This document shows, piece after piece, positions 13,325 to 58,266 of a DNA stretch of 64,000 bases. The stretch lies in the NCBI GenBank assembly GCA_019096065.1, contig JAGUCH010000004.1:124001-188000 (forward strand), written 5' to 3'. The position numbers and the translations under genes are program-made. The notes beneath the pieces are model-generated. The model ran no database searches, had not been told where the DNA came from, and saw nothing but the letters and a program-made list of their open reading frames with translations. How positions within the stretch are numbered: the stretch's first letter is position 1; each line of letters starts with the position of its first letter. Source of the stretch: Paracyclopina nana. Its lineage: Eukaryota; Arthropoda; Copepoda; Cyclopoida; Cyclopettidae.

Positions 13325-13397
13325 GGGAAGGGATGGATTCGAACCACAGTTAGTTGGATACAGAAACCTACGCCCTAACCACTGAGCTATGGAAACT
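13325..13397 (-). repeat. tRNA-like (SINE-type) sequence with A and B boxes
   Basis: On the minus strand TAGCTCAGTGGTTAGGGCG (13389-13371) matches a pol III A box and GGTTCGAATCC (13345-13335) a B box. The T arm and acceptor stem pair poorly, so this looks like a tRNA-derived repeat or dead tRNA rather than a working tRNA gene. Confidence 0.55.
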
Positions 13398-13474
13398 TCA
13401 TGCAATTCGGTTGGTATTACAGAACGATTTAACATTATTCAAGCCTTATGATGAAATTAGAAAAAAAATAAGGG

Positions 13475-13522
13475 CACCCTGAACCTCAAATGGCTGAAAC
13501 ACTCTAACCATTGAGCCATAGG
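13475..13522 (-). repeat. Second tRNA-like promoter fragment, also in block B
   Basis: On the minus strand GGCTCAATGGTTAGAGTG (A-box-like) is followed by GAGGTTCAGGGTGCCC (weak B box). The same sequence sits at about 44835-44878 in the duplicated block, next to the same AAAAAAATAAGGGCACC word. Probable tRNA-derived SINE remnant. Confidence 0.45.
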
Positions 13523-13903
13523 AACATAGCTTTTAAGAGTAAAAAGTATATTTTATTACGCCCAAGCCAAATGATGATGAGGATAAAAAACTAGTAAAAT
13601 TACAGCCCTCACAAGGTCGGGCTTGTAAAGCTGTACTCGTGTTAGTAACCCTGGCTAGCGGATTAGGTCATTAGGATAAAATTCTCTCATAATATTCCTT
13701 AGTGCATTTTTTTCTGACTTCACCAAGTCATTCTTTAACAAAAACATACAACTTTCTCTTTTAACTATTACAATTCTTCCTATGCAATTTTTTATGAAGT
13801 CCAGATTTGAATTGTATATTTTTAATGAATGATTTAAAACTTTGCACATCTGCTTATTTGTAAACTTTTTTGATTTGTTATAATTTTTTGTGCAGTCATT
13901 TTT

Positions 13904-15306
13904 ATGATTTACGGCAATCTTTATTTATGGCTCTTGTTGACAATGACATCTGGCAGCAGTCTTATCCTCACTTTTCTACTACTTATTCAGTACATAACCG
14001 CTCAAAAATTTGTGACTAGCATTGAGATACTACCATGTTTGGATGATGGCTCTGGTACAAGCGATGCAACATGGGTTACTATAACAGCCAATGGCTCAAC
14101 ATGCAAAACTGAAAATTTAATATTAGGTATCAATTAATAAACAAGCAGCAACAAGCATGCATGTTTTTCATGCGATAAAATAATATTTAGAGGGAGGTCT
14201 TTATCCTGGAAAATGGCGTGAATTTTATGGCATGGGTACTTGCTTTGCTCTTGACCTGGAAAATGAAGTGAGAAAGCTTTCAGGATATGGCAACACTATA
14301 ATGAAAAAAAATTGCAGAAAAGTATCGCTGCTGGAATAAAAAGCTCTGGCAGCTGTATTGCAAGCATTGGAGTTATAATTGGCAATCAAATGGCTGCATC
14401 TTATAAATGCGATTTTGATGTTGACCTAGATGGCCAAGAGGAAACGCGTCCTTGCAAACTTATGGACGGTGTGTCTAGATTGTGGATTGTAGTTTCAGAT
14501 GAGGAAGGGAGTGGAACTGATAGTGACGTATCTGTGGAATTCATATCATATCCTGTAAAATGCAAGACAAGCATTTTGGATAATGTTGGCAATGATCTAG
14601 AACGTGGGACAATGAATGTGTTTAGGCATGATTTATTCCCTGATTGTACATTCAGCAAGTTTGAAGCTCATGAATGTGCTCAAGGCATTCCTTGCTTTAT
14701 CATGAATGTAAGATTGAAAAGTACCTCATTCATCTCTTTTGATCATATTTTATCATTGATCTTATTTCATTACTGAAAAGAGTTTATGCTCAACAATGCT
14801 TTTATTTGCTGCAGTTTACAAATCATGGATATGGTAATCAAAAACTAGGGAAATTATCATATTTGTATTCATGCTGTGTTTAGATCAAATTGCAGTTGGA
14901 AGCATTGAGGTTGCTTTGAGTCATGAAGGCAAAGTCCAAGTATTTTACTGCAAACATCCTGATACCTATAGCCCATCATTCTATTCTGTTCTTTCTACCA
15001 TTCCGTAAGTTTGCCTTACCAGTTTGGATTGGGTGTGCAGTAATACATTCAGTCTTGATTTTTAGACTGGTTTGCTCCTTAAGACAAAAAAGGAAAAGTG
15101 CATTTCGCTGCCTTACTTTCAATGAGCAATTTATGCCTCAAACATGCAATGATGGGAAATGCTGTGTGTCAACAAACATCACTTTACTTCAAAACTATTC
15201 AAAGAAAAGAATTTACAATGTGGATTTTGATTGTCGCAATAATCGTGCTAATGAGTTCTTTGTTTATGGCAATGCCATTAGAGACAGAGATTGCTTTGAA
15301 AAGTAA
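13904..15306 (+). CDS. Secreted Cys-rich 356-aa protein with PLAT-like segments, copy A1 (intact)
   Basis: Six exons: 13904-14126, 14191-14267, 14318-14707, 14815-14833, 14884-15004 and 15066-15306, all GT-AG and in phase. A hydrophobic N-terminus ends L-L-I-Q-Y-I-T-A-Q; the second ATG (13946) would give a more compact signal peptide. Exon 3 contains G-S-G-T-D-S-D-V-S-V-E-F then L-D-N-V-G-N-D-L-E-R-G-T-M-N-V-F, which resembles the G-x-G-T-D-x-x-V ... N-D-F-E-R-G-x-x-D-x-F pattern of PLAT/LH2 domains. Exon 1 (G-S-G-T-S-D-A-T-W-V) may begin a second such unit. Exon 6 is Cys-rich and ends R-D-C-F-E-K. I do not recognise a named gene. Copies are at 45203 and 56358. The splice model is strongly supported by three copies of equal length; the PLAT link is only a pattern match. 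Confidence 0.8.
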
Positions 15307-16080
15307 AATTGCCTCAAAATAATGAAAATAGGATTATCTTGTTGCTGAATCATTACTCTAGGTCCAAGTTTGTTGATATGCATGGGAACAAGTTGAACTG
15401 CAGTCTATCATTTGAAAGCCAATCAATGCCAAGAATAGCATTCAACTGTATGTAGCCAAATATACTTTCAATTTTATAAGCGTCTGATTGAGTCATGACT
15501 AATAAAATGGGAACATGAAGCAATTTTGCTTGGGTCTTAATTTCAAACTATTTCTCAAGTTGCAAAAGCATGTTTCCTAAGTATTTAGTCTTTCGACCTC
15601 AACCTAAGCAATGTTTTGCATATGGCTATGTCACATAGGACTGTGAATGTGTGACATAGAACTATATCACATAGGAGAGTGTCGCATAGCAAAGTGTCAC
15701 ATAGCAATGTGATGCTATGGACTCCATTTCATTTAATTTATGAGTGAATTGGTCAAGTGGAATTATAGTGTGTTCATTATTTGCTTGATCATTCCATATA
15801 AGACTGTTGCTTGCCATCATCATTGACAAAAGCCATTGACAGAGATGATTTTAAATCAGGAAATTGATTAAAAAATATTTTGATTACAAATATAGAAATT
15901 ACTCTTGTAGTAAAAGTACTACATTAATTTCAGAACAAAATAAATCATGGACTTCATCACAATTGCACAGAAAGTTTTCCAAAAAGTTCTTGTTTGATTT
16001 AAGCTAGGCTGAGAGGATTTAGAAAAAAGAAGAGTACTCACTTTCTGCTTGAACATTCCTAGCCTAGTTTGGGCTCTCAT
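15307..16080. other. Spacer between the 356-aa gene and the PAN gene in block A
   Basis: No gene seen. It holds short imperfect repeats around TGTCACATAG (about 15640-15710). It also has the single-copy word AAAAGTACT (15912-15920), which is the empty insertion site for the foldback element found at 46907-47951 in block B. Confidence 0.7.
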
Positions 16081-16081
16081 A

Positions 16082-16376
16082 GTTTATTCTGGTTGATGTT
16101 TGTGCATGGTTTATAATGTTCAATGCAATCACTCAAATGTTAATATCCATACAATATGCTAAAATTTACGTCCTGAATGACAGTTGCCTCCTCATTATGG
16201 AGCCAGCAAAGTTTGCCTGATGCATCATATTGGAACAAGTAACAAACAGGGTGCTGTTGGCATAATTCATGACAAGCGCAAATACTTTTTGTGGGATGTC
16301 CTTCCTTCATTCCATAAGAATTAGCTGATGTCACTTTTCCAGTTATGAAAGGGATAGCTTTTAAGGTCTAACATAG
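16082..16376 (-). pseudogene. Extra copy of the PAN gene last exon (Apple-like domain 2)
   Basis: Directly repeats most of the last exon of the PAN gene at 16441-17508: C-A-C-H-E-L-C-Q-Q-H-P-V-C-Y-L-F-Q-Y-D, L-C-W-L-H-N-E-E-A-T-V-I and S-I-L-Y-G-Y. An in-frame TAA follows G-Y, where the intact copy has AAA (Lys). There is no acceptor-led start for the exon, so it is a decayed domain duplication, possibly used as a skipped exon. Confidence 0.7.
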
Positions 16377-16440
16377 TTTATTCTGGTTTGATGTTCGAAC
16401 ATGGTTTATAATGTTCAATGCAGTCACTCAGACGTTTGTA

Positions 16441-17508
16441 TCAATTTGACAATAATCTAGAAGTGCCTGCCTGAGAGGCAGTTGCCTCCTGATTATGAAG
16501 CCAACAATTTTTTCTACCATCATAATAACCCTGATCATATTGGAACAAGTAACAAACAGGGTGCTGTTGGCATAATTCATGACATTCGCAAATACTTTTT
16601 CCAGGATGTCCTTCCTTCATTCCATCAGCAAAAATATTATCTGATGTATCTGATGTCACTGTTCCTCTTATGAAAGGGATAGCTTTTAGAGCCTTACAAA
16701 AGTTTTCATCGCAAGTGCTCCTTCCAGCAACGACTCGAACCTTGCCCTACATTGCAAGTAAATGCAGATTTTTCTATTGTTGGATGTCTTTAAAATTGAT
16801 ACTTCAATTTTTTTCTTCTCACAATAGCGATAGAATTTGCACACATTGGTATCATAGTTGAATACATAGTATGAACACTCCGTATCATTAGCACAAGATT
16901 GTTGGCATGCATCAGCAGAGTCCAGTCCATCCAATTTTTTCCACAGCGGGCCAATGCATTCAGTTCCACATAATCGACAGTCACTTTCATTACACTCTAT
17001 ACTAGTTGGTGGGGGCTCTAACCAAAGAATAAATGACTGGCATTAGGATTGCCTTCAATAAAGTACACTTATTTTGAGGAAAACTTGCAGATCAGCCCAC
17101 CCATCATTTGGGAAAGCTATAAATCTAATGAGCTCTTTCCAAAAGAAAGGTGCAAGTTATAAGCCATGATTTAAAAAGTCCTACAAAATGTAAAGATAAG
17201 TTTGCTGAATTATGACAGGATGAAATTGTTGTGGAGTGTACAAATTGTTGAACCTATCCAAACTTGCCATAAACTGACTTTTTTCAAATGAAAATTTGTT
17301 TCATGTTGGTAAGAAAAGAAAATATACTTACTTATCTTCTAGCTTATTAGCACAATTGCAGCTAGCTGCTCATATAAAATTAAAGGAATCTTTTTTTACC
17401 TGTTGCTGGAGGTGTAGTAGGTTGAATTGTGGTGGATCTGCCAACCTTCGCAGAACATCCCCATGCTTGCATAGGGAAGCAAAATAGCAGCAAAAATAAC
17501 CATGTCAT
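16441..17508 (-). CDS. Two-domain PAN/Apple secreted protein, block A copy, C-terminus shortened by a stop
   Basis: Exons 17508-17400, 17017-16803 and 16746-16441 give 209 residues. Exon 1 is a signal peptide (M-T-W-L-F-L-L-L-F-C-F-P-M-Q-A-W-G-C), then a Thr/Pro-rich linker (T-T-I-Q-P-T-T-P-P-A-T). Exon 2 is Apple domain 1 (C-R-L-C-G-T-E-C-I-G-P ... D-A-C-Q-Q-S-C ... C-S-Y-Y-V-F-N-Y ... C-K-F-Y-R-Y-C-E-K). Exon 3 is domain 2 (C-E-C-H-E-L-C-Q-Q-H-P-V-C-Y-L-F-Q-Y-D, C-W-L-H-N-Q-E-A-T). The frame stops at a TGA (16441-16443); homologous copies have CGA there. About 20 further codons including a conserved Asp-Cys remain readable to a TAA at 16378-16380. Its near-intact homologue is at 54821-55927 in inverted orientation. 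Confidence 0.75.
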
Positions 17509-17637
17509 GATGTATTTGCTAAGTAACTGCAATTTGAGAAGTCCTCTTTGAAGTTCAAGTCTTCAAACAAGTCCACTTAGTCTTGCATTGTTGTTGGGAT
17601 TTTTTTACAAAATTTTTTTTTATTTATAAATATGTTT
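17509..17637. other. Spacer shared by both duplicated blocks
   Basis: Poly-T-rich; its reverse complement lies at about 54700-54820. It sits between the divergent PAN gene and the broken 356-aa gene and probably contains the PAN promoter. Confidence 0.5.
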
Positions 17638-18965
17638 AGAGGGAGGTCTCCCAGCTGAAGCTTGATGAGTGAATACTATGGCATGGGTAGTTGCTCCTCT
17701 CTTGACCTAGAAAATCAAGTGAGAAAACCACAGGCATGAATCATGTCGAATGAAAAGTAAGTTGCACAGAAAAGTATCGGTGTTGGAATAGAAAACTCTG
17801 AGGTTTGTATTGCAAGCACTGAAATTCTAATGACCAAACAAATGGCTGCATCTTATGAATGCACAGTGGATCAAAAAGCCGATTTTACGCGCACGAGAAA
17901 TTACGTCAAATCGCAGATTTCCGATTTTAGCACCCATTTTTAGCTTCTAATTTGTAGGACTTCTAGGCTATCTGAAGAGCACAAATTAATGTTTATTGAC
18001 AGATAAAGGTTCAAATTTGGTGAGGAAAACATAATTTTTGGGCAAAAGTTGATTTTGGCGAATTCAGTAGAACAGCAACTTTGCACAATTTGAGCAAAAA
18101 TGAAATCTCCCATAACTTTTGAATCCAAACGACTCCAATTGCGTGACCAAGTCAGGGAAGTCAAGCTTATAGCATAAATTGATAATCCACCAGAATTGGC
18201 TGCTCTTACTTGCTCTCCCGGGTGCCAGGATGGCATATTTTTAGCTTACCACTAATGAGAAAAAGGTGCTACGTTGATTTCGCGACTTTTTCCGTGCGCG
18301 TGAAATCGGCAAATAAACCCACTGTGGAATGTGATTTTGGCCTTGGCCTTCATGGCCAAATGGAAACATGCCCTTGTAAACCTAAATAGATGGTGTGCTG
18401 AGATTGTGGATTGCAGCTTAAGATAAGGATTGGGGTGGAACTGATAGTGACATAACTGTGGGCCAGATTCAATTCGAATGATGGAGAATGCACGTCTACA
18501 GTTTTGGATGATGTTGGCAATGACTATGAACATGAAACAGTGAATTTTTATGGTCATGATTTATTTTCTGAGTGTACATTCAAACTCACTTCCCACGTCA
18601 CAATGAAAGTATTTTCTGAAGAATGATTTTTTTGTTATAGTTTACAAACCATAGAAGTGGTAATGACACTTTATGGAAGACTCTTACATTTGTATTCACT
18701 CTTTGTTTAGATCAAATTGCAGACCGAAGAATAGATGTTGCTTTGAGCAATGAATTTAAAGTTCAAGGATATCACTGTATACATCCAGATAAGTATGTGC
18801 TAACATTTTATGCTGAAGATTCAACTGCTCCGTAAATTCAACAAAGCAATACAAAGCAGGTTTTTGCAATGCATTCAATATTAATTTGCAGACTTGTTTG
18901 CCACTTAAGACAAAAAAGGAAAAAGAACATTTTTTTGCCTTACTTTTTATGAGCAGTTTTGAACG
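17638..18965 (+). pseudogene. Broken copy (A2) of the 356-aa PLAT-like gene, split by a Transib-like element
   Basis: Recognisable decayed exons follow the family order: exon 2 (from about 17638, with a stop), exon 3 (about 17770, interrupted at 17861 by the element, resuming at 18332), exon 4 (about 18641), exon 5 (about 18713-18833) and the start of exon 6 (about 18894). Exon 1 and the Cys-rich end are missing. Its reverse-complement partner is at 50677-51455 plus 54467-54730. Confidence 0.8.
17862..18326. mobile_element. Transib-like miniature element with CACAGTG ends, 465 bp
   Basis: The termini are inverted: the left begins CACAGTGGATCAAAAAGCC, the right ends CCCACTGTG, with further matched bases ATTTTACGCGCACG / CGTGCGCGTGAAAT. 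It is flanked on both sides by GAATG (17857-17861 and 18327-18331), a 5-bp target duplication. Intact homologous genes (14402, 45701) show the uninterrupted site. No transposase. The CACAGTG terminus plus 5-bp duplication is the hallmark of the Transib superfamily. Confidence 0.8.
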
Positions 18966-18974
18966 GAAAGAAGT

Positions 18975-23724: not shown

Positions 23725-24191
23725 CACAGTGGGTTTATTTGCCAATTTCACGCGCACGGAAAAAGTCGCGAAATCAACGTAGCACCTTTTTCTCATTAGT
23801 GGTAAGCTAAAAGTATGCCATCCTGGCACCCGGGAGAGCAAGTAAGAGCAGCCAATTCTGGTGGATTATAAATTTATGCTGTAAGCTTGATTTCCCTGAC
23901 TTGGTCACTCAATTGGAGTCGTTTGGAATCAAAAGTTATGACACAGATTCAATTTTTGCTCAAATTGTGCAAAGTTGCTGTTCTACTGAATTCGCCAAAA
24001 TCAACTTTTGCCCAAAAATTATGTTTTCTTCACCAAAATTGAACCTTTATCTGTCAATAAACATTAATTTGTGCTCTTTAGGTAGCCTAGAAGTCCTACA
24101 AATTAGAAGCTGAAAATGGGTGCTAAAATCGGAAATCTGCGATTTAACGTAATTTCTCGTGCGCGTAAAATCGGCTTTTTGACCCACTGTG
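23725..24191. mobile_element. Transib-like miniature element, second copy, 467 bp
   Basis: Same family as 17862-18326: starts CACAGTGGGTTTATTTGCC, ends TTTTTGACCCACTGTG. The flanking 5 bases differ (CCGTG left, CACCG right). Instead the element is bracketed by a direct repeat of about 44 bp, so its boundary was rearranged or the site was duplicated. Confidence 0.8.
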
Positions 24192-24820
24192 CACCGCCGG
24201 CTGGGTTTTGCAAGCTTTTTTGCAAGCTGCCGTGGCAAAGGGGGGCGCGGGCGCTCGAGTGCGCACGCGCGCTTGCACATGGCAACAATCAGCCAAGTCA
24301 CTAGTCAGGCTGGCCCGGGAATGCACTTTAAACACCCTGGGGAGGCAGGACCGGCGAAGCCCTCTCCCTGCCATCCATCTCCCGCCCCCTCGGTGGCGTT
24401 ATTGGCGCCTGATAGGCGAGGGCTTTTGGGGCCCCAGCCCCCGGCGTGAACGTCTGGCCTCTTTTCGCTACGTCAGCATCGTGCATGGAATTGGCGACGG
24501 CGCGCGCGCGGTCACGGCGGTTCCTTTGTTTTTTGGCGTTTGCGCTAGCAAGACATACGACTACAGTCCCGCTGTTAAAGTCGCAAGGTGGCAACCCTCA
24601 TCATCATCCTCTCCGTGGGGTAAGTGGCGAAATGACGTACACCGAGGCCGATCCCACCCTCATTCGTATCGTGAGCCGAGGCCTCCTCTGCGCGCTCGGC
24701 GAGCGGCTCATGCAACTGAGGCGATGGAAAGCCTCCGCCAACTTTCGCGAGTTTCATTTTTGCCCTTTTCCAAAAAACGCACGCGCCAATTTTGCATTTT
24801 GGTACCGAAAAGCAAAGTGC
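24192..24820. other. CpG-rich unique stretch between two transposons
   Basis: Much richer in GC and CpG than its surroundings. It has open frames on both strands, but none with recognisable domains, biased codons or a splice pattern. It could be a promoter or first-exon CpG island, or foreign or repetitive DNA. Confidence 0.4.
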
Positions 24821-33097: not shown

Positions 33098-33100
33098 AGT

Positions 33101-42660: not shown

Positions 42661-42669
42661 AGGGGGAAG
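42661..42669 (+). other. Polypurine tract
   Basis: AGGGGGAAG lies immediately before the 3' LTR, where the plus-strand primer is expected. Confidence 0.75.
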
Positions 42670-42670
42670 T

Positions 42671-42870: not shown

Positions 42871-43475
42871 AAGGGGTTGGATGAGTCCGGCCTCAGAGGC
42901 CTAGCTAAGTACTCTGCACTCTGAGGGAACTCTAACCTCCTTTTAGACAAGCGGCCTCTACTGCTCTAGTCTACCACTCTGGTCCTCTCCTGGGTAGAAA
43001 GTACGACAGTCCTGGTCGGCCTTTCTGGGCTCTATAGCGTCTCTGCACTTCCTCACCCAAAGACGAGACTCTGGAACAGCAAATAGCGCGCACCGTAGGA
43101 TCACTACAGGTCTGATGGCCTCTAGATGAACTTAGGCCTCAGCCTGCGAAGTGTGAACAGCTTGGGTTGAAAGGCCAAGCTTGATGATGAAATCTGTTCA
43201 TTAAACGCACTGTTTTATCGTTCAATGAGCTGCTTTATTTGCTATCTCCCCGACACATGGTAACTTTGGTGGAAACCAGAGTCTGCAAATCTCGAAGTAC
43301 AGCTAGACTTCTTGGGTGGACATCACTCTTCGGCGTCCCTGGAGCGACTCCTTGAGTTCTTCTCCTCGTAGTTGCATGATAGTGGCGACGTCTCGCATCT
43401 CCTAAGGCAGCCGCCTGCTTGCCTTGGCCTGCTCTTGCGTTCTATCTGGACCCCACCAGATATCACATATCAAGT
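42871..43475. other. Flank of the LTR element, no gene recognised
   Basis: Moderately GC-rich with many CTCT/GAGG words; no open frame of note. Confidence 0.4.
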
Positions 43476-44745: not shown

Positions 44746-45202
44746 GCCGAAATTTCATGCAATTCAGTTGGTATTACAGATCCATTTAACATTATTCTAG
44801 CCTTTTGATGAAATTAGAAAAAAAATAAGGGCACCCTGAACCTCAATTGGCTGAAACACTCTAACCATTGAGCCAAAGTAAATAAACTTTTATAAAATGA
44901 CAATTACAGCCCTCACAAGGTTGGGCAAGTAAAGCTGTAGTAACCCTGGCTATCGGATTAGGTCATTAGGATAATATTATCTCATAGTATTATTCCATAG
45001 TGCATTTTTTTCTGACTTCAACAAGTCATTCTTAAACAAAATCATACAACTTTCTCTTTTAGCTATTACAATTCTTCCTGTGCAATTTTTTATGAAGTCT
45101 AGATTTGAATCATCTATTTTTAAAGCTTGATTTAAAACTTTTCGCATCTGCTTTATTTGTAAACTTTTTTGATTTGTTATAATTTTTTGTGCAGTCATTT
45201 TT

Positions 45203-46605
45203 ATGATTTACAGCAATCTTTATTTATGGCTCTTGTTGACAATGACATCTGGCAGCAGTCTTATCCTCAATTTTCTACTACTTATTCAGTTCATAACTGC
45301 TCAAAAATTTGTGACTGGCATTGAGATACTACCATGTTTGGATGATGGCTCTGGTACTAGCGATGCAACATGGGTTACTATAACAGCCAATGGCTCCACA
45401 TGCAAAACTGAAAATTTAATATTAGGTATCAATTAATAAACAAGCAGCAACAAGCATGCATGTTTTTCATGCGATAAAATAATATTTAGAGGGAGGTCTT
45501 TATCCTGGAAAATGGCGTGAATTTTATGGCATGGGTACTTGCTTTGCTCTTGACCTGGAAAATGAAGTGAGAAAGCTTTCAGGATATGGCAACACTATAA
45601 TGAAAAAAAATTGCAGAAAAGTATCGCTGCTGGAATAAAAAGCTCTGGCAGCTGTATTGCAAGCATTGGAGTTATAATTGGCAATCAAATGGCTGCATCT
45701 TATAAATGCGATTTTGATGTTGACCTAGATGGCCAAGTGGAAACACGTCCTTGCAAACTTATGGATGGTGTGTCTAGATTGTGGCTTGTAGTTTCAGATG
45801 AGGAAGGGAGTGGAACTGATAGTGACGTATCTGTGGAATTCTCATCAAAGAGTGGAGAATGCAAGTCAAGCGTTTTGGATAATGTTGGCAATGACCTAGA
45901 ACGTGGGACAATGAATATGTTTAGGCAGGATTTATTCCCTGATTGTATATTTAGCAAGTTTAAAGCTCATCCATGTGTTAGAGGCATTCCTTGCTTTAAC
46001 ATGAAGGTAAGAGTGAAAAGTACCACATTCAGGACTTTTCATTGTGTTTTATCATTGCTCTTATTACATTACTAAAAAGAGTTTATGCTCAACAATGTTT
46101 TTGTTTGCTGCAGTTTACAAATCATGGATATGGTAATGATAACCTCAAGAAATTATCATATTTGTATACATGCTGTGTTTAGATCAAATTGCAGTTAGAA
46201 GCATTGAGGTTGCTTTGAGTAATGAAGGCAAAGTCCAAGTTTTTTATTGCAAACATCCTGATAACTTTCGACCATCATTCTATTCTGTTCGTTCTACCGT
46301 TCCGTAAGTTTGTCTTACCATTATGGTTGGGGTGTGCAGTAATACGTGCAGTCTTGATTTTTAGACTGGTTTGCAGCTTAAGGCAAAAAAGGAGAAGTGC
46401 ATTTCGCTGCCTTACTTTCAATGAGCAATTTATGCCTCAAACATGCAATGATGGGAAATGCTGTGTATCAACAAACATCACTTTACTTCAAAACTATTCA
46501 AAGAAAAGGATATACGATGTGGATTTTGACTGTCGCATTAATCCTGCTAATGAGTTCTTTATTTATGGCAATGCCATTAGAGACAGAGATTGCTTTGAAA
46601 AGTAA
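45203..46605 (+). CDS. Secreted Cys-rich 356-aa protein with PLAT-like segments, copy B1 (intact)
   Basis: Exons 45203-45425, 45490-45566, 45617-46006, 46114-46132, 46183-46303 and 46365-46605. Every boundary is offset exactly 31,299 from copy A1, with no indels and no stops. Residue changes cluster in exon 3: after D-V-S-V-E-F the A1 residues I-S-Y-P-V-K-C-K-T are S-S-K-S-G-E-C-K-S here. Several changes are also seen in the exon 5 part. An intact frame in a recent duplicate suggests it is maintained. Role unknown; secretion is inferred from the hydrophobic N-terminus. Confidence 0.8.
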
Positions 46606-46906
46606 AATTGCCTCAAAATAATGAAAATAGGATTATCTTGTTGCTGAATCATTACTCTAGGTCCAAGTTTGTTGATATGCATGGGAACAAGTTGAACTGC
46701 AGTCTATCATTTGAAAGCCAATCAATGCCAAGAATAGCATTCAATTGCACGTAGCCAAATTTACTTCAATCATTCAATAAAAAGACTGATGGCTTGCCAT
46801 CATCATCATTGACAAAAGCCATTCACAAAGAGGAATTTGAATCAGGAAATTGTTTAAAAAATATTTTAATTACAAATATAGAAATTACTCTTGTAGTAAA
46901 AGTACT

Positions 46907-47951
46907 CGTATATACTAAATACTGCCCACAATCGCGCAGTTTTAGGAGTATCAACAAATTGCTTAGTAGAGCCCATGTACTGACAGTAGCAGGCATAAAA
47001 TAGAAATACAAAAATGAGTCATTTACTCACTTCTGAGACCTGACTCAGCATTCTTGACCCAATGCTGAGTTCTGCTGAGAATTTGAGGTACCTGAGTTAA
47101 CCCCAACCTGTAGATTAAGCAAGGATCTACAAAATCCGTTTTTTGGCTGCCCTGAAACGTCCACAGTAGTACTTTTTTTCAGCTAAGTTCAGTCTCAGCA
47201 TTCTAGACCCTTTACTGAGCTCTGCTGAAAATTTGAGGCAGCTGAGTCAATTTTAAGGGCCAAACTCAGCATTTTTGACCCAATGCTGGTCTCAGAAGTA
47301 AATGACTCATTTTTGTATTTCCATTTTATGCCTGTCAACTATTAGTACATGGGCAGAAGTTAGCAGCTTGTTGGTACTCCTGAAATCGGCCCTTAAAATT
47401 GACTCAGCTGCCTCAAATTTTCAGCAGAGCTCAGCAAAGGGTCAAGAATGCTGAGACTGCTCTTAGCTGAAAAAAAGTACTACTGTGGACGTTTCAGGGC
47501 AGCCAAAAAACGGATTTTGTAGATCCTTGCTTAATCTACAGGTTGGGGTTGACTCAGGTACCTCAAATTCTCAGCAAAACTCAGCATTGGGTCAAGAATG
47601 CTGAGTCAGCTCTTAGTTGAGATTTAAGCATCCCGAATTTAAAAAAAAATATAGGAAAAAAAAGTTAATGTCGAAAAGTGGTGTAGCGGTTTTTTACCTT
47701 AGAGTTGACAACATTGTACTGTTGTTGTTGTTGTTTAATAAGGGTTACTTTAAGTATATTTGACTCTTATTCATTTTTATCTCTTAATTATAATCTCTGG
47801 GCAGTATTTAGATTGTGCGCGTTTGTGCGCATTTTTGCGCATTTTGATTCATGGGCAGTTTTTAGTATTTGCACGATTGTGCGCGATCGTGCGCGATTGT
47901 GCGCGTTTGTGCGCGATAGTGCGCGATCGTGGGCAGTATTTAGTATGGGCC
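46907..47951. mobile_element. Foldback/Mutator-like element copy 1, 1045 bp, with 9-bp target duplication
   Basis: Starts CGTATATACTAAATACTGCC, ends CAGTATTTAGTATGGGCC; flanked by AAAAGTACT on both sides (46898-46906, 47952-47960). The empty site is present once in block A (15912-15920). Sub-terminal GCGCGATCGTGCGCG-type words follow each end. The interior is a large imperfect palindrome (about 47020-47330 against 47330-47640) built on CTCAGCATTCTTGACCC and TGAGTCA words. No transposase. The 9-bp duplication fits the Mutator superfamily. Confidence 0.88.
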
Positions 47952-48122
47952 AAAAGTACTACATTAATTTCAGAACAAAATAAATCATGGACTTCATCAA
48001 AAATGCACAGAAAGTTTTCCAAAAAGTTCTTGTTTTGATTTAAGCTAGGCTGAGAGGATTTATAAAAAAAGAGTACTCACTTTCTGCTTGAACATTCCTA
48101 GCCTAGTTTGGGCTCCCATAGT

Positions 48123-48270
48123 TTATTCTGGTTTGATGTTTGAGCATGGTTTATAATTTTCAATGCAATCACTCAAATGTTTATATCCATACAATATGCT
48201 AAAATTTACGCCCGGAATGACAGTTGCCTCCTCATTATGGAGCCAGCAAAGTTCGCCTGATGTATCATCA
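48123..48270 (-). pseudogene. Fragment of PAN gene last exon
   Basis: L-C-W-L-H-N-E-E-A-T-V-I-P-G-V, Y-G-Y-K-H-L-S-D-C and C-S-N-I-K-P-E-stop are readable. Upstream it is fused to part of the 356-aa gene, so only the tail of Apple-like domain 2 is present. Confidence 0.75.
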
Positions 48271-48284
48271 ATCATGCAACTGAC

Positions 48285-48798
48285 ACTACATAAAATGATG
48301 AAAAATAATATGATGGAGCCATTTGATTGCCAATTAGAATTCCGATGTAGGAAATACAACTGGAAGAGCCCTGTACACCAGCAGTGATGCTTTCCTGCAC
48401 AACTAATTAACATCAAGGCCTGCTTCTCACTAAAAGTTTTCTCACTTCATTTTCCAGGTCAAAAGTAAAGCAAGCACCCATGCCAAAATACTCATGCCAT
48501 TCTCCTCGCCAAAGATCTCCCTCTAAATATTATTTTTTTTTTGCATAAAAATCATGCGCCATTTACTGATGATACCTGCTATTAAATTGTCAGTTTTGCA
48601 TGAGGTGCCATTGGCAGTTATAGTGACCCATGTTGCCTCATTAGTACCAGAACCAAGATCGAAGCATGGTCGAATCTCGATTCCAGTCACAAATTTTTGA
48701 GCTTTGCAGTACTGAAGAAGATGCAGAAAAGTGAAGATAAGGCTGCTGCTAGGCGTCATCATCAACAAGAGCCATAAATTAAGATTGCTGTAAATCAT
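48285..48798 (-). pseudogene. Truncated copy (B2) of the 356-aa PLAT-like gene
   Basis: Exon 1 (48798-48576), exon 2 (48522-48446) and the start of exon 3 (from 48394) match copy B4 almost exactly. After Q-M-A-P-S-Y-Y the sequence jumps into what is normally the promoter side of the gene (CATCATTTTATGTA), and then into the PAN fragment. The rearrangement junction is near 48300-48315. Confidence 0.8.
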
Positions 48799-49059
48799 GC
48801 AACTGACATTACATAAAATGATGAAAAATACTTTCACTGCAATATTTTGCAAACATTAGCACTAACCAAGTTTGCCTCACCAAGATATTGGATCCAAACA
48901 TGATCATGAAAGTTTGTTCATGGGTGACGGGTCCTTTCTAGTTCCAAGAGCACCAGGTTTGGGTATCTACTTATTATTTGCAGTAGTGCATATTGTACTA
49001 AGTATTTTGAACCACTGTGATATAACTATTGTTTATTCTGGTTTGATACTGTTACACCT

Positions 49060-49190
49060 ATGATAATTTTCAATGCAATCACTCAAATGTTTATATCGAT
49101 ATAATAAGCTAGAAGTGCCTGCCTGAAATAAAAGTTGCCTCCTCATTATGGAGCCAACAATTTGGGCCTGATCTACAATAGTTGACCTCA
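49060..49190 (-). pseudogene. Second PAN tail fragment
   Basis: T-S-S-L-L-Y-R-Y-K-H-L-S-D-C-I-E-N-Y is readable, with a shifted frame before it. The inverted copy lies at about 55955-56125. A relic of a domain duplication next to the PAN gene. Confidence 0.6.
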
Positions 49191-49228
49191 TATTGGAACA
49201 TTCCTAGCCTAGTTTGGGTTCCCATAGT

Positions 49229-50420
49229 TTATTCTGGTTTGATGTTTGAGCATGGTTTATAATTTTCAATGCAATCACTCAAATGTTTATATCCATACAA
49301 TATGCTAAAATCTACGCCCGGAATGACAGTTGCCTCCTCATTATGGAGCCAACAATTTGGGCCTGATGTATCATATTGGAACAAGTAACAAACAGGGTGC
49401 TGTTGGCATAATTCATGACAAGCGCAAATACTTTTTGCGGGATGTCCTTCCTTCATTCCATCAGCAAAAGTATTATCTGATTTCACTTTTCCAGTTATGA
49501 AAGGGATAGCTTTTAAGGTCTTGCAAAAAAGTTTGCATCGCAAGTGCTCCTTCCGGCAATGACTCGAACCATGCCCTACATTGCAAGTAAATGCAGATTT
49601 TTCAGTAGTTAGATGTCTTAAAAATAGATACTTCAATTTTTTTCTTCTCACAATAGTGATAGAATTTACAAACGTTGGTATCATAGTTGAAGACATAGTA
49701 TGAACACTCCGTATCATTAGCACAAGATTGTTGGCATGCATCAGCAGAGTCCAGTCCATCCAATTTTTTCCACAGCGGGCCAATGCATTCAGTTCCACAA
49801 AATCGACAGTCTCTTTCATCACAATGCACTGCAGCTTCACCTTGTAAGCAATGATTTCAGTACACTCTTTTTCCATTTGGAAATAAGTTGGATCATGAAT
49901 CTCATAGAGCTAACAATACTTGTTACTGGAGGAGTTATTGAAGAAGTTGATTGGCGTATTGTACTAGGAGATTCATGCTTATGAGATTCACTTGGAGAAG
50001 TTGAGACATGTGCAGTTGAGTTGAAGTTGCTCACAATTCTCGTCTCAATAGAACCTAACAAGTGTAGAGTCTTTAAAAGCTCTAAACTTGTGAGCAATTA
50101 TGTTTGTTAAGGGAGATTCTAAACTCGTGGAAGCTCAATCTTTTGTTTCTTTAATTTCCTCCAGCTGCTTTGCCCAAAAGTTTTAAGAATATTCTTACCT
50201 GAATTGGTTGTCATTCCATGATTTACTCTGTCCTCATCATCAGCTAAAATTACAAATTTCGAACACAAAAAAGACTACTGCCCTTGTGATGAAGCTTTTT
50301 AATACTTGAGTCATTTGAAGGGTGTTCATGGCTGTTCCCATGATTTTTAGGTACAAGCTGTTTAGAGGGACAGCCAGTCGCAATGTGACAAAGGATAAGG
50401 AGCAACAAGATTGATTTCAT
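49229..50420 (-). pseudogene. Two-domain PAN/Apple gene, block B copy 2, frameshifted in the last exon
   Basis: Four exons: 50420-50279 (signal peptide M-K-S-I-L-L-L-L-I-L-C-H-I-A-T-G-C, then a His/Lys-rich stretch), 50243-50199 (15-codon mini-exon, D-D-E-D-R-V-N-H-G), 49840-49632 (Apple domain 1, C-R-F-C-G-T-E-C) and 49575-49229 (domain 2). The phases fit until a run of six T (49525-49530 on the plus strand reads six A) where the intact homologue has four. The two extra bases stop the frame about 20 codons into the last exon; past it the domain is intact to N-I-K-P-E. The run may be polymorphic or a sequence error. Its first exons differ from the other PAN genes, so it is a distinct paralogue. 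Confidence 0.75.
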
Positions 50421-50676: not shown

Positions 50677-51455
50677 TTGTCATTGCCAAAAATAAAGAAC
50701 TAACTCATTAGCTGGGTTGTTGCGACATTCAAAATCCACATTGGATATCCTTTTCTTTGAATAGTTTGGAAGTAAAGTGATGCTAGTACATATGCAGCAT
50801 TTCCAATCATTGCATGTTTGAGGCATAAACTGCTCATAAAAAGTAAGGCGAAAAAATGTTCTTTTCCTTTTTTGTCTTATGTGGCAAACAAGTCTGCAAA
50901 TTAATATTGAATGCATTGCTAAAAACCTGCTTAGTATTGCTTTTATGAATTTATGGAACAGTAGAATCTTCAGCATAAAATGTTAGTGGATAGCTATCTG
51001 GATGTATACAGTGATATCCTTGAACTTTAAATTCATTGCTCAAAGCAACATCTATTCCTCGGTCTGCAATTTGATCTAAACATAGAGTGAATACAAATGT
51101 AAGAGTCTTCCATAAAGTGTCATTATCACTTCTATGGTTTGTAAACTATAACAAAAAAATCATTCTTCAGAAAATACTTTCATTGTGACGCGGGAAGTGA
51201 GTTTGAATGTACACTCAGAAAATAAATCATGACCATAAACATTCACTGTGTCACGTTCGAAGTCATTGCCAACATCATCCAAAACTGTAGACTTGCATTC
51301 TCCATTATTCGAATTGAATCCCACAGTTATGTCACTATCAGTTCCACCCCAATCCTTATCTTAAGCTGCAATCCACAATCTCAGCACACCATCTATTTAG
51401 GTTTACAAGGGCATGTTTCCATTTGGCCATGAAGGCCAAGGCCAAAATCACATTC
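50677..51455 (-). pseudogene. Broken copy (B3) of the 356-aa PLAT-like gene, 3' part
   Basis: Reverse complement of the block A pseudogene A2, but it keeps more of exon 6: F-Y-E-Q-F-M-P-Q-T-C-N-D, Y-S-K-K-R, N-V-D-F and N-P-A-N-E are readable. The 5' part continues at 54467-54730 beyond the inserted transposons. Confidence 0.78.
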
Positions 51456-54400
51456 CACAGTGGGTTTATTTGCCGATTTCACGCGCACGGAAAAAGTCGC
51501 GAAATCAACGTAGCACCTTTTTCTCATTAGTGGTAAGCTAAAAATATGCCATCCTGGCACCCGGGAGAGCAAGTAAGAGCAGCCAATTCTGGTGGATTAT
51601 CAATTTATGCTATAAGCTTGACTTCCCTGACTTGGTCACTCAATTGGAGTCGTTTGGAATCAAAAGTTATAGGAGATTTCATTTTTGCTCAAATTGTGCA
51701 AAGTTGCTGTTCTACTGGGCCCATACTAAATACTGCCCACGATCGCGCACTATCGCGCACTATCGCGCACAATCGCGCACAAACGCGCAACTACTAAAAA
51801 CTGCCCATGGATCAAAACGCGCACAAACGCGCACAAACGCGCACAATCTTAATACTGCCCAGAGATGATAATTAAGAGATAAAAAAAGAATAAGAGTAGA
51901 AATACAAAAATGAGTCATTTACTCACTTCTGAGACTTGACTCAGTATTCTTGACCCAATGCTGATTTTTGCTGAGAATTTGAGGCACCTGAGTCAACCCC
52001 AACCTGTAGATTAAGCAAGGATCTACAAAATCCGTTTTTTGGCTGCCCTGAAACGTCCACAGTAGTACTTTTTTTCAGCTAAGTGCAGTCTCAGCATTCT
52101 TGACCCTTTGCTGAGCTCTGCTGAAAATTTTAGGTACCTGAGTCAACCCCAGCCTGTAGATTAAGCAAGGATCGACAAAATCCGTTTTCTGGCTGCCCTG
52201 AAACGTCCACAGTAGTACTTTTTTTCAGCTAAGTGCAGTCTCAGCATTTTTGACCCAATGCTGAGTTTTGCTGAGAATTTTAGGTACCTGAGTCAACCCC
52301 AACCTGTAGATTAAGCAAGGATCTACAAAATCCGTTTTTTGGCTGCCCTGAAACGTCCACAGTAGTACTTTTTTTCAGCTAAGTGCAGTCTCAGCATTCT
52401 TGGCCCTTTGCTGAGCTCTGCTGAAAATTTGAGGCAGCTGAGTCAATTTTAAGGGCCGATTTTAGGAATACCAACAAGCTGCTAACTTCTGCCCATGTAC
52501 TGAAAGTTGACAGGCATAAAATGGAAATACAAAAATGAGTCAGTTACTCACTTCTGAGACCTGACTCAGCATTCTTGACCCAATGCTGAGTTTTGCTGAG
52601 AATTTGAGGTACCTGAGTCAACCCCAGCCTGTAGATTAAGCAAGGATCTACAAAATCCGTTTTCTGGCTGCCCTGAAACGTCCACAGTTGTACTTTTTTC
52701 AGCTAAGTGCAGTCTCAGCATTCTTGGCCCTTTGCTGAGCTCTGCTGAAAATTTGAGGCAGCTGAGTCAATTTTAAGGGCCGATTTCTGGAGTATCAACA
52801 ATTGCTAAGTAAAGCCCATGTACTGAAAGTTTACAGGCATAAAATAGAAATACAAAAATACAAAAATGCTGAGTCAAGTCTCAGAAGTGAGTAAATGACT
52901 CATTTTTGTATTTCTACTTTATGCTGGTCAACTATTAGTACATGGGCTTTACTTAGCAATTTGTTGGTACTCCAGAAATCGGCCCTTAAAATTGACTCAG
53001 CTGCCTCAAATTTTCAGCAGAGCTCAGCAAAGGGTCAAGAATGCTGAGACTACTAACTGAAAAAGCTACTGTGGACGTTTCAGGGCAGCCAGAAACGGAT
53101 TTAGATCATGCTAATCTACAGGTTGGTGACTCAGGTACCTCAAATTCTCAGCAAACTCAGCATTGAGTCAAAAATGCTGAGTCAGGTCTCAGAAATGAGT
53201 AACTGACTCATTTTGTATTTCCATTTTATGCCTGTCAACTTTCAGTACATGGGCTTTTACCAGTTTGTTGATGCTCCAAAATCGGCCTTAAAGTGACTCA
53301 GCTACCTCAAATTTCAGCAGAGCTCGGCAAAGGGCCAGAATACTGAGACTGCTTAGCTGTACTACTGTGAACGTTTCAGGGCAGCCAGAAAACGGATTTT
53401 ATAGATCACTGCTTAATCTACAGGAATTGACTCCAGGTACCTAAAATTTTCAGCAGAGCTCAGCAAAGGGTCAAGAATGCTGAGACTCACTGTAAAAAAG
53501 TACTACTGTGGAACGTTTCAGGCAACCAAAAGCATTTTGCAGATCTTTGCCTAATCTACAGGTTGGGGTTGACTCAGGTACCTCAAATTCTCAGCAAAAC
53601 TCAGCATTGGGTCAAGAATGCTGAGTCAAGTCTCAGAAGTGAGTAAATGACTCATTTTTGTATTTCTACTTTATGCTGGTCACCTATTAGTACATGGGCT
53701 TTACTTAGCAATTTGTTGGTACTCCTGAAATCGGCCCTTAAAATTGACTCAGCTGCCTCAAATTTTCAGCAGAGCTCAGCAAAGGGTCAAGAATGCTGAG
53801 ACTGCACTTAGCTGAAAAAAAGTACTACTGTGGACGTTTCAGGGCAGCCAGAAAACGGATTTTGTAGATCCTTGCTTAATCTACAGGTTGGGGTTGACTC
53901 AGGTACCTCAAATTCTCAGCAAAACTCAGCATTGGGTCAAGAATGCTGAGTCAGGTCTCAGAAGTGAGTAACTGACTTATTTTTGTATTTCCTTTTTATG
54001 CCTGTCAACTTTCAGTACATGGGCTTTACTTGGCAATTTGTTGATGCTCCTAAAATCGCAGTATTTAATAGTCATTTTGTTGATCCTTTTGAATATACAG
54101 GTTGGGGTTGACTCAGGCGCCCTTAACTCAAAAATATGAGTTTCTTATCATTTGTGGGCAGTATTTAGTATTTGCGCGTTTGGGTGCGATAGTGCGCGTT
54201 CGTGCACGTTCGTGCGCGTTTGCGCGCGATTGTGGGCAGTATTTAGTATATACGGTTCTACTGAATTCGCCAAAATCAACTTTTGCCCAAAAATTATGTT
54301 TTCCTCACCAAATTTGAACCTTTATCTGTCAATAAACATTAATTTGTGCTCTTCAGATAGCCTAGAAGTCCTACAAATTAGAAGCTAAAAATGGGTGCTA

Positions 54401-54466
54401 AAATCGGAAATCTGCGATTTGACGTAATTTCTCGTGCGCGTAAAATCGGCTTTTTGATCCACTGTG
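51456..54466. mobile_element. Transib-like element, third copy, split by a nested foldback element
   Basis: Ends CACAGTGGG (51456) and CCACTGTG (54466), flanked by CATTC on both sides (51451-51455, 54467-54471), the reverse complement of the GAATG duplication in block A. It is the same insertion inherited through the duplication. The Transib part itself is 51456-51717 plus 54264-54466. Confidence 0.82.
51718..54254. mobile_element. Foldback/Mutator-like element copy 2, 2537 bp, nested, 9-bp target duplication
   Basis: Starts GGCCCATACTAAATACTGCC, ends CAGTATTTAGTATATACG: the same termini as copy 1 in opposite orientation. Flanked by GTTCTACTG (51709-51717, 54255-54263), which is single in block A (18065-18073). 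The interior is a long inverted arrangement: several direct units of about 200-240 bp (51900-52850), then inverted ones (52870-54060), all with TGAGTCA, CTCAGCATT and CTGAAACGTCCACAGTAGTAC words. No transposase seen. Confidence 0.88.
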
Positions 54467-54820
54467 CATTCATAAGATGCAGCCATTTGATTGGTCATTA
54501 GAATTTCAGTGCTTGCAATACAAACCTCAGAGTTTTCTATTCCAACACCGATACTTTTCTGTGCAACTTACTTTTCATTCGACATGATTCATGCCTGTGG
54601 TTTTCTCACTTGATTTTCTAGGTCAAGAGAGAAGCAACTACCCATGCCATAGTATTCACTCATCAAGCTTCAGCTGGGAGACCTCCCTCTAAACATATTT
54701 ATAAATAAAAAAAAATTTTGTAAAAAAAATCCCAACAACAATGCAAGACTAAGTGGACTTGTTTGAAGACTTGAACTTCAAAGAGGACTTCTCAAATTGC
54801 AGTTACTTAGCAAATACATC

Positions 54821-55927
54821 ATGACATGGTTATTTTTGCTGCTATTTTGCTTCCCTATGCAAGCATGGGGATGTTCTGCGAAGGTTGGCAGATCCACCAC
54901 AATTCAACCTACTACACCTCCAGCAACAGGTAAAAAAAGATTCCTTTAATTTTATATGAGCAGCTAGCTGCAATTGTGCTAATAGGCTAGAAGATAAGTA
55001 AGTATATTTTCTTTTCTTGCCAACATGAAACAAATTTTCATTTGAAAAAAGTCAGTTTATGGCAAGTTTGGATAGGTTCAACAATTTGTACACTGCACCA
55101 CAATTTCATCCTGTCATAATTCAGCAAAATTATCTTTACATTTTGTAGGACTTTTTAAATCATGGCTTATAACTTGCACCTTTCTTTTGGAAAGAGCTCA
55201 TTAGATTTATAGCTTTCCCAAATGATGGGTGGGCTGATCTGCAAGTTTTCCCCAAAATAAGTGTACTTTATTGAAGGCAATCCTAATGCCAGTAATTTAT
55301 TCTTTGGTTAGAGCCTCCACCAACTAGTATAGAGTGTAATGAAAGTGACTGTCGATTTTGTGGAACTGAATGCATTGGCCCGCTGTGGAAAAAATTGGAT
55401 GGACTGGACTCTGCTGATGCATGCCAACAATCTTGTGCTGATGATACAGAGTGTTCATACTATGTCTTCAACTATGATACCAACGTTTGTAAATTCTATC
55501 ACTATTGTGAGAAGAAAAAAATTGAAGTATCTATTTTTAAGACATCTAACTACTGAAAAATCTGCATTTACTTGCAATGTAGGGCATGGTTCGAGTCATT
55601 GCCGGAAGGAGCACTTGCGATGCAAACTTTTGCAAGACCTTAAAAGCTATCCCTTTCATAACTGGAACAGTGACATCAGATAATACTTTTGCTGATGGAA
55701 TGAAGGAAGGACATCCCACAAAAAGCATTTGCGCTTGTCATGAATTATGCCAACAGCACCCTGTCTGTTACTTGTTCCAATATGATACATCAGGCCCAAA
55801 TTGTTGGCTCCATAATGAGGAGGCAACTGTCATTCCGGGCGTAGCTTTTAGCATATTGTATGGATATAAACATTTGAGTGATTGCATTGAAAATTATAAA
55901 CCATGCTCAAACATCAAACCAGAATAA
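54821..55927 (+). CDS. Two-domain PAN/Apple secreted protein, block B copy 3 (intact)
   Basis: Exons 54821-54929, 55312-55526 and 55583-55927 give 222 residues with all phases right. Signal peptide M-T-W-L-F-L-L-L-F-C-F-P-M-Q-A-W-G-C, Thr/Pro-rich linker, Apple domain 1 (C-R-F-C-G-T-E-C-I-G-P, D-A-C-Q-Q-S-C-A-D-D, C-S-Y-Y-V-F-N-Y, C-K-F-Y-H-Y-C-E), domain 2 (F-C-K-T-L-K, C-A-C-H-E-L-C-Q-Q-H-P-V-C-Y-L-F, C-W-L-H-N-E-E-A-T-V-I-P, Y-G-Y-K-H-L-S-D-C-I-E) and the tail N-I-K-P-E. Full length, unlike the block A copy. It lies directly upstream of the intact 356-aa gene on the same strand, so the two could be co-regulated. Confidence 0.83.
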
Positions 55928-55954
55928 ACTATGGGAACCCAAACTAGGCTAGGA

Positions 55955-56125
55955 ATGTTCCAATATGAGGTCAACTATTGTAGATCAGGCCCAAATTGTT
56001 GGCTCCATAATGAGGAGGCAACTTTTATTTCAGGCAGGCACTTCTAGCTTATTATATCGATATAAACATTTGAGTGATTGCATTGAAAATTATCATAGGT
56101 GTAACAGTATCAAACCAGAATAAAC
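55955..56125 (+). pseudogene. PAN tail fragment, mirror of 49060-49190
   Basis: Repeats part of the last exon (N-C-W-L-H-N-E-E-A-T-F-I-S ... Y-R-Y-K-H-L-S-D-C-I-E-N-Y) just 3' of the intact PAN gene. No start or splice site of its own. Confidence 0.6.
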
Positions 56126-56357
56126 AATAGTTATATCACAGTGGTTCAAAATACTTAGTGCAATATGCACTACTGCAAATAATAAGTAGATACCCAAACC
56201 TGGTGCTCTTGGAACTAGAAAGGACCCGTCACCCATGAACAAACTTTCATGATCATGTTTGGATGCAATATCTTGGTGAGGCAAACTTGGTTAGTGCTAA
56301 TGTTTGCAAAATATTGTAGTGAAAGTATTTTTCATCATTTTATGTAATGTCAGTTGC

Positions 56358-57751
56358 ATGATTTACAGCAATCTTAATTTATGGCTCTTGTTGATGATGG
56401 CGCCTAGCAGCAGCCTTATCTTCACTTTTCTGCATCTTCTTCAGTACTGCAAAGCTCAAAAATTTGTGACTGGGATCGAGATTCGACCATGCTTCGATCT
56501 TGGTTCTGGTACTAATGAGGCAACATGGGTCACCATAACTGCCAATGGCACCTCATGCAAAACTGACAATTTAATAGCAGGTATCATCAGTTAATGGTGC
56601 ATGATTTTTATGCAAAAAAAAATAATATTTAGAGGGAGATCTTTGGCGAGGAGAATGGCATGAGTATTTTGGCATGGGTGCTTGCTTTGCTTTTGACCTG
56701 GAAAATGAAGTGAGAAAACTTTTTAAGTGTGAAGCAGGCCTTGATGTTAATTAGTTGTGCAGGAAAGCATCACTGCTGGTGTACAGGGCTCTTCCAGTTG
56801 TATTTCCTACATCGGAATTCTAATTGGCAATCAAATGGCTCCATCATATTATTGTTATTTTGAAGTTGACTTAAATGGCCAATTGGAAACACGTCCTTGC
56901 AAACGTGTAGATGGTGTGTCTAAAATATGGATTGCAGTTATAAATGAGGACTGGGGTGGAACTGATAGTGACATAACTGTGGAATTCAAATCAAATCCTG
57001 TACAATGCAAGACAAGCATTTTGGATAATGTTGGCAATGACCTAGAACGTGGGACAATGAATGTGTACAGACATGATGTATTCCCTGATTGTACATTCAG
57101 CAAGTTTGAAGCTCATGAATGTGGTCAAGGCATTCCTTGCTTTAACATGAATGTAAGATTGAAAAGTACCACATTCAGCTCTTTTCATCATATTTTATCA
57201 TTGCTCTTATTTCATTACTGAAAAGAGTTTATGCTCAACAATGCTTTTGTTTGCTTCAGTTTACAAATCATGGATATGGTAATGATAACCTCAGGAAATT
57301 GTCATATTTGTATTCATGCTGTGTTTAGATCAAATTGCAGTTGGAAGCATTGAGGTTGCTCTGAGTCATGAAGGCAAGGTCCAAGTATTTTTCTGCAAAC
57401 ATCCAGAGAACTTTCGACCATCATTCTATTCTGTTCGTTCCACCATTCCGTAATATTGCCTAATCAGCATGAAGCTATTATGCAGAAATGCATTCAGTCT
57501 TGATTTTTAGACTGATTTGCAGCTTAAGGCAAAAAAGGAGAAGTGCATTTCGCTGCCTTACTTTCAATGAGCAATTTATGCCTCAAACATGCAACGATGG
57601 GAAATGCTGTGTATCAACAAACATCACTTTACTTCAAAACTATTCAAAGAAAAGGATATATGATGTGGATTTTGACTGTCGCAATAATCCTGCTAATGAG
57701 TTCTTTGTTTATGGCAATGTCAAGAGAGACAGGGATTGTTTTGAAAAGTAA
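56358..57751 (+). CDS. Secreted Cys-rich 356-aa protein with PLAT-like segments, copy B4 (intact)
   Basis: Exons 56358-56580, 56633-56709, 56763-57152, 57260-57278, 57329-57449 and 57511-57751; the same six-exon plan and same 356-residue length as A1 and B1. More diverged: exon 2 reads E-G-D-L-W-R-G-E-W-H-E-Y-F, exon 3 has G-G-T-D-S-D-I-T-V-E-F and the shared L-D-N-V-G-N-D-L-E-R-G-T. The hydrophobic N-terminus ends L-L-Q-Y-C-K-A-Q; an in-frame ATG at 56304 would add 18 residues. The conserved length, splice sites and cysteines across three copies argue for a working secreted protein. Confidence 0.8.
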
Positions 57752-58266
57752 ATTTACCACTCACAAGGTTGAACTTAAAGCTGAATTGATTGTTCAAGGG
57801 CCAAGTTTGTTGATTTGCATGGAAACATTTTGAACTGCAGCCCATCAAATGAAAGACAATCATCATTGCCAGGAATGGTATTCAATTGTGTTTAGTTTTG
57901 AAGATACTGTCTGTATTTTTCAAATGTTTTTTACATAACTAAGTCATGTCTCACTGTACAGTCCGGTTCAGAGGATTAATGAACGCCTCTGTTGTAGGTA
58001 ACAGCAGAAGTGTCGACTATTTTCTAAATCATTCTGTACACAAATAAACAAAACGTCATTAAGTAGCCAATGCCAGGCCAATTCTTTAAATAGAACCTTT
58101 AACCATCTTTTAAAAATAACTTTTTTCAAAAAAAGTACTTTTTCAAATAGTTTTGTTTTGACATTACAATCAACAAAATAGAAAAAATAGCCAAAGCTAC
58201 TAATTTTCGATCTAAAATTATGATTCTTACTTTTCAAATAACAAAAGCTGCTGAGTCACTGATCAC
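57752..58266. other. 3' flank of block B, no gene recognised
   Basis: AT-rich. Similarity to the other blocks fades near 57900. Confidence 0.5.

Follow-up and report, generated by a model that had tools for sequence, protein, structure and literature searches.

The PLAT/LH2 domain (PF01477) is named after polycystin-1, lipoxygenase and alpha-toxin and folds into an eight-stranded beta-sandwich. Spider mites carry a small family of single-PLAT-domain proteins, whose genes are clustered in both orientations in sequence rich in transposable elements, and PAN-domain proteins are named beside PLAT among the responsive families (PMC6288829). The sections of that account available to us describe no PAN/PLAT gene pair, within a literature search that was not exhaustive, and report no eukaryotic similarity of the PLAT proteins beyond tetranychid mites (PMC6288829). 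Here we describe a locus of the copepod Paracyclopina nana that is likewise clustered, in both orientations, rich in transposable elements and accompanied by PAN proteins, and that differs from the single-domain spider-mite family (PMC6288829, as far as those sections go) in having tandem PLAT-like repeats. The window, by which we mean the whole stretch of 64,000 nucleotides analysed (positions 124,001 to 188,000 of contig JAGUCH010000004.1, indexed as G000:C4:124001-188000), belongs to a 92-Mb, 10-contig assembly that all own-genome searches covered; the counts from these searches are lower bounds. Three intact genes for 356-amino-acid (aa) PLAT-like proteins, A, B and C, lie there among intact and broken PAN genes, P1 to P5 (Table 1). 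We consider it probable that the locus is a local cluster evolving by birth and death, whose genes encode secreted proteins that bind lipids or other ligands.

Structure and evolution of the cluster

Self-BLAST of the window recovered direct copies of the gene A region around both gene B (13392-15472 against 44749-46770, 90.8%) and gene C (13873-15455 against 56327-57895, 83.2%), together with three sets of inverted copies (16372-18073 against 55933-54255, 94.4%; 18065-18959 against 51717-50827, 96.3%; 48301-49823 against 56856-55335, 98.3%). Given their length and identity, these matches are far beyond chance. The offset from A to B is 31,299 bp, in agreement with a sequence-only reading of this DNA that had placed direct and inverted copies in two blocks about 31 kb apart. 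The graded series of broken copies described in that reading was also recovered, by self-BLAST for the relics and by a stop in P3 and a frameshift in P4. Six broken copies lie in the blocks, namely P3, P4, the PAN relic at 47952-48268 and three PLAT-like relics, and further, smaller PAN end fragments are present in the window. Exons 2 and 3 of P4 sit within the most similar inverted arm, which is common to P5. Intact and broken paralogues of graded divergence at one locus bear out the compact birth-and-death cluster that had been proposed. A bidirectional promoter common to P3 and the adjacent PLAT-like relic was considered and rejected, as no first exon is seen in the relic.

Table 1. Features of the cluster and of related loci; positions are counted from the first letter of the window unless a contig is named.
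Feature	Position	Strand	Description
Gene A	13904-15306	+	Exons 13904-14126, 14191-14267, 14318-14707, 14815-14833, 14884-15004, 15066-15306; 356 aa, PLAT-like
Gene B	45203-46605	+	Exons 45203-45425, 45490-45566, 45617-46006, 46114-46132, 46183-46303, 46365-46605; 356 aa
Gene C	56358-57751	+	Exons 56358-56580, 56633-56709, 56763-57152, 57260-57278, 57329-57449, 57511-57751; 356 aa
P1	10114-11905	-	Intact-looking PAN gene; first exon 11905-11770 by eye; similarity to P5 E 2.4e-21
P2	12046-12912	-	Intact-looking PAN gene; ends approximate, by eye; similarity to P5 E 6.6e-18
P3	16380-17508	-	PAN; three exons 17508-17400, 17017-16803, 16746-about 16380; premature stop in last exon
P4	49230-50420	-	PAN; own first exon at 50420 (MKSILLLLILCHIATGCPSK...); third exon frameshifted
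P5	54821-55927	+	PAN; three exons 54821-54929, 55312-55526, 55583-55927; intact, 222 aa, two PAN stretches
PAN relic	47952-48268	-	3' part only; 95% to 15912-16228 (self-BLAST)
PAN leader relic	12997-13110	+	82% to 17593-17480, inverted
PLAT-like pseudogene	17628-18959	+	Internal stops; first exon unmatched; broken by ~470-bp terminal inverted repeat (TIR) element
PLAT-like pseudogene	50678-54700	-	Inverted copy of 17628-18959; divided by 2.5-kb TIR element
Truncated gene C copy	48301-48829	-	5' part; inside the 98.3% inverted repeat
Most similar inverted repeat	48301-49823 (left arm), 55335-56856 (right arm)	.	98.3% (self-BLAST)
TIR element, 1.0 kb	46907-47951	.	9-bp target-site duplication; empty site 15912-15920
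TIR element, 2.5 kb	about 51718-54254		9-bp target-site duplication; splits pseudogene 50678-54700
TIR element, about 470 bp	17860-18326, 23725-24193	inverted	Two copies, 95.7% alike; ends CACAGTGG.../...CCACTGTG
C2 gene (L049)	G000:C2:7130001-7139000		ApoL-type domain, then, by eye, about four cysteine-rich PLAT-like repeats
C5 locus (L050, L051)	G000:C5:7552001-7559000, 7617001-7623000		Second two-domain PAN locus; open and interrupted copies

Genes A, B and C share a six-exon structure (223, 77, 390, 19, 121 and 241 nt) with GT-AG introns. The identity of exon lengths noted in the sequence-only reading holds for all three, with no exon-length change over 1,071 nt. Intron 1 measures 64, 64 and 52 nt and intron 2 measures 50, 50 and 53 nt in A, B and C respectively, so that C differs in its introns and not in its exons. 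The proteins open with a hydrophobic leader that ends near residue 34 (called by eye), continue with a pair of PLAT-like repeats in tandem and close with a shorter cysteine-rich segment at the C-terminus. Past the leader, 18 cysteines occupy the same positions in A, B and C, and C has one more within the leader; P5 has 19 past its own. The earlier description of the members as secreted and disulfide-rich thus stands for cysteine content, whereas secretion is suggested by hydrophobic N-termini judged by eye, from which the 356-aa PLAT-like proteins are probably secreted.

Moreover, at least some of the coding sequences show constraint. Nonsynonymous to synonymous ratios (dN/dS) were estimated by the Nei-Gojobori method with a one-sided Fisher test, the three pairs among A, B and C being mutually dependent. 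Gene C is constrained relative to both A (dN/dS 0.47, dS 0.248, p = 1e-4) and B (0.63, dS 0.206, p = 0.013), and so the neutral dN/dS in every copy that would have counted against the sequence-only reading was not found, although the A-B pair is not significant. For A-B, A-C and B-C respectively, dN/dS is 0.38, 0.52 and 0.57 in exons 1-2 and 0.42, 0.24 and 0.26 in exons 4-6. The PAN genes P5 and P3 give 0.35 (dS 0.225, p = 1.6e-4) when P3 is read through its stop and gaps and stops are dropped.

We propose that direct segmental duplication multiplied a PLAT-like gene together with the PAN genes beside it, with synonymous divergence of about 0.07 between A and B and a split from C at about 0.2-0.25. 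In addition, inverted duplication would have produced the 98.3% arms, TIR elements would have inserted and superfluous copies would have decayed; the similarity among copies, relics and empty transposon sites is still high enough for them to be ordered. The PLAT-like proteins would most likely work extracellularly as modules braced by disulfides, binding to lipid surfaces or to other ligands, and the PAN proteins would be separate two-domain molecules with adhesive or ligand-binding roles.

PLAT-like repeats and an ApoL/PLAT-like relative

Outside the window, matches to the PLAT-like genes in the same genome (E <= 0.01) are confined to one locus on contig C2, which accounts for two of 26 rows, the other 24 being in the window. 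The N-terminus of the C2 gene matches Pfam ApoL (27.4 bits, cut-off 25.9). Residues 400-640 of its open frame are matched by the sequences P0001 and P0002 at 76% and 52%, and these score 24.7 (below the cut-off) and 38.1 bits against ApoL. No ApoL match was found in the window genes tested with Pfam, A and C. Gene B is colinear over both repeats with P0001 (207 alignment columns, 27% identity, E 2e-19) and with P0002 (282 columns, 24% identity, E 2e-20), and six cysteines of repeat 1 are invariant in five aligned sequences (A, C, P0001, P0002 and the C2 gene; B left out). The C2 gene, P0001 and P0002 are therefore like the window genes in their tandem, colinear PLAT-like repeats and shared repeat-1 cysteines. 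The C2 gene differs in its N-terminal ApoL-type domain, in place of the short hydrophobic leader of the window genes, and in further repeats (by eye). Because B is colinear with P0001 and P0002 over both repeats, the 356-aa proteins appear to correspond to the C-terminal half of an ApoL/PLAT-like protein, lacking its ApoL portion. Searched against a set of 5.8 billion proteins, gene C found no homologue at E <= 0.01, and neither did P5, in protein collections where this lineage seems thinly represented. Since relatives close to the ApoL form exist elsewhere and gene C had none in this search, the ApoL form may be the parent of the 356-aa family. Ordinary gene-family turnover is what the locus displays; the less ordinary part is a tandem, cysteine-braced PLAT-like family of common origin with an ApoL/PLAT-like gene. 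The family is small and probably secreted, its main part is that of one half of a multidomain protein, and at this single locus its genes have undergone multiplication, inversion and breakage.

The PLAT-like character named in the sequence-only reading was upheld at the level of profiles, though Pfam scores remain below the cut-off. A repeat-2 profile of five rows (A, B, C and two C2 gene stretches) retrieved eight PDB chains at E <= 10, all eight being alpha-toxin/phospholipase C or lipoxygenase (E 0.0032-0.55), and the stretches matched are presumably the PLAT domains of these proteins. Similarity to solved PLAT proteins is therefore found through repeat 2, with weak E-values. The repeat 1 and repeat 2 profiles match one another with a probability of 85% (E 6e-6, 103 columns). 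Gene C alone had no PDB match at E <= 10, and NCBIfam gave none with A and the two C2 stretches. The family resembles PLAT/LH2 in that repeat 2 matches these PDB chains and, in B, aligns to positions 3-100 of the 117 in the Pfam profile, and it differs in falling below the Pfam cut-off and in being strongly cysteine-braced and tandem.

Several observations weigh against a working cluster of PLAT-like, ligand-binding proteins. Every piece tried fell short of the Pfam PLAT cut-off of 23 bits, the best being repeat 2 of B (22.2), followed by repeat 2 of A (16.5), whole A (13.9) and P0002 (13.0), with no match for repeat 2 of C or whole C. An own-genome search with the PLAT family led to four places, none in the window and none in the C2 gene. 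The repeat-1 profile found no PLAT proteins in PDB, its 10 matches at E 0.89-1.4 being unrelated sequences that mark the noise level, and the repeat-2 stretch of P0002 alone gave two hits, a lipoxygenase at E 0.69 and an unrelated enzyme at E 0.84. AlphaFold models were poor, with a mean confidence score (pLDDT) of 41.0 for exon 3 and 37.5 for P0002. The A-B comparison (dN/dS 0.68, dS 0.073, p = 0.10) is indistinguishable from neutral, and in exon 3 dN/dS is 1.3 for A-B and 1.05 for B-C, with 0.67 for A-C; on these two grounds gene B could be losing function or diversifying. Lastly, P5 lies on the strand of C and ends 430 bp before it, and coupling is possible there.

PAN genes and alternative explanations

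P5 scores 40.8 bits against Pfam PAN_1 (2e-10, cut-off 21.4), which confirms the PAN identity assigned from sequence and places it among PAN/apple proteins (PF00024). Like these it has two PAN stretches above the cut-off; it differs in that no domain other than PAN was found and in its distance from solved members (best PDB match coagulation factor XI, E 0.0022). The earlier count of one intact PAN gene is right within the blocks, where P5 alone is intact, but it overlooked P1 and P2 at 10-12.9 kb. The last exon of P1 alone stays under the Pfam cut-offs (PAN_4, 24.5 of 27 bits; PAN_1, 15.7 of 21.4). Tandem repeats occur at P1 (a 111-bp repeat at 10815-11038 and a 15/30/45-bp array at 11149-11633), and by eye the 111-bp repeat lies inside a coding exon and encodes the linker with its STRANVQ-type repeats.

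Within the genome, P5 gave 30 matching rows, of which 18 are in the window, eight on contig C5 (7554-7620 kb) and four elsewhere. Over PAN domain 1, identity of P3-P5 to the C5 copies is 46-56%, and to P1 and P2 it is 53-59%, in a comparison of eight sequences that includes one C5 copy with its stop written X. On these figures, the PAN family probably predates the cluster.

The sequence-only reading went on to suggest that the paired PLAT-like and PAN genes may form a recognition, adhesion or secretory system. If so, the two would be co-expressed and would work jointly in recognition, in adhesion or in a secreted matrix, their adjacency being maintained by selection; we regard this as unlikely. 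Both families are cysteine-rich and secreted-looking, each block holds both, intact or broken, and adjacency is close between P5 and C and between the divergent P2 and A, about 1 kb apart. However, orientation is inconsistent among copies: A and P3 are convergent, P5 and C in tandem and P2 and A divergent. All PAN copies of the B block are broken, though B is intact. Among the matches listed, moreover, C5 has no PLAT-like match and C2 no P5 match, and the PAN_1 match nearest to the C2 gene is 1.4 Mb off, in a search that scored 150 of 158 candidates. Neither linkage at independent loci nor a fixed orientation was found, and because orientation varies, B has only broken PAN copies and the C5 and C2 loci are without the partner, the pair system is unsupported. 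Joint copying appears enough to explain the shared neighbourhood without selection, and we infer that functional coupling is absent.

The relationship to the C2 gene suggests a second alternative, in which the 356-aa proteins would act as a soluble C-terminal half that tunes, or competes with, the ApoL/PLAT-like protein. We find this improbable, and equally so its fuller form, in which a lineage-specific soluble set drawn from the C-terminal half of a possibly pore-forming ApoL/PLAT-like protein would diversify in repeat 2 and serve as decoys or regulators of its parent; the diversification is suggested by exon 3 dN/dS near 1 in pairs with B. Colinearity across both repeats, the six invariant cysteines, and ApoL matches on the C2 gene and P0002 with none on A and C speak for it, but identity is only 24-27% and the ApoL match of P0001 is under the cut-off. 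Were the decoy idea true, it would point to a regulated ApoL-type system, and for this reason the ApoL/PLAT-like gene merits more attention than the duplication.

Very unlikely, in our view, is a dying cluster in which all copies are relics or decaying and the open frames are recent leftovers. The six broken copies and an A-B dN/dS not different from 1 are consistent with it, but the significant constraint of A-C and B-C and the unchanged exon lengths of three genes are not. That the blocks stem from an assembly artefact or unpurged haplotypes is hardly credible: inverted arms at 98.3% are able to confuse assemblers, but the longer copies differ by 1.7-17%, two TIR insertions have empty sites in another copy, and an inverted orientation is a poor fit to haplotype duplication.

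Transposable elements and surroundings

The 1.0-kb and 2.5-kb TIR elements have similar ends and both lie in the second block, with their empty sites intact in the first. With up to two mismatches allowed, their terminal sequence has 39 occurrences genome-wide, against 0 for the reversed control, and therefore belongs to a dispersed element family. We take the 9-bp target-site duplications to be reminiscent of Mutator-like elements. In two other TIR copies no transposase-like long frame was found, the longest frame being 133 aa in one (L057) and none reaching 150 aa in the other (L059).

Between the blocks, 32894-42871 is retroelement-like, with open frames that resemble gag, reverse transcriptase and integrase (by eye, without a domain search) and 205-bp direct repeats at its ends that are 96% alike by self-BLAST. 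Its GC content of 46-59% exceeds that of 30-32 kb (39%) and of 44-46 kb (36%). An open frame at 31408-32208 has weak kelch-type matches (best 23.1 bits, cut-off 50), and 17-bp repeat arrays lie at 3346-4055 (about 42 copies) and 5240-6057 (about 49 copies). Rfam gave nothing above threshold over 9000-64000. Lastly, two regions encode C-type lectin domains, namely 60138-60500 (Pfam Lectin_C, 1.5e-14) and 62280-62660 (1.5e-11), and 59640-60564 is 73% alike to 60990-61903, which points to another possibly secreted family adjoining the cluster.

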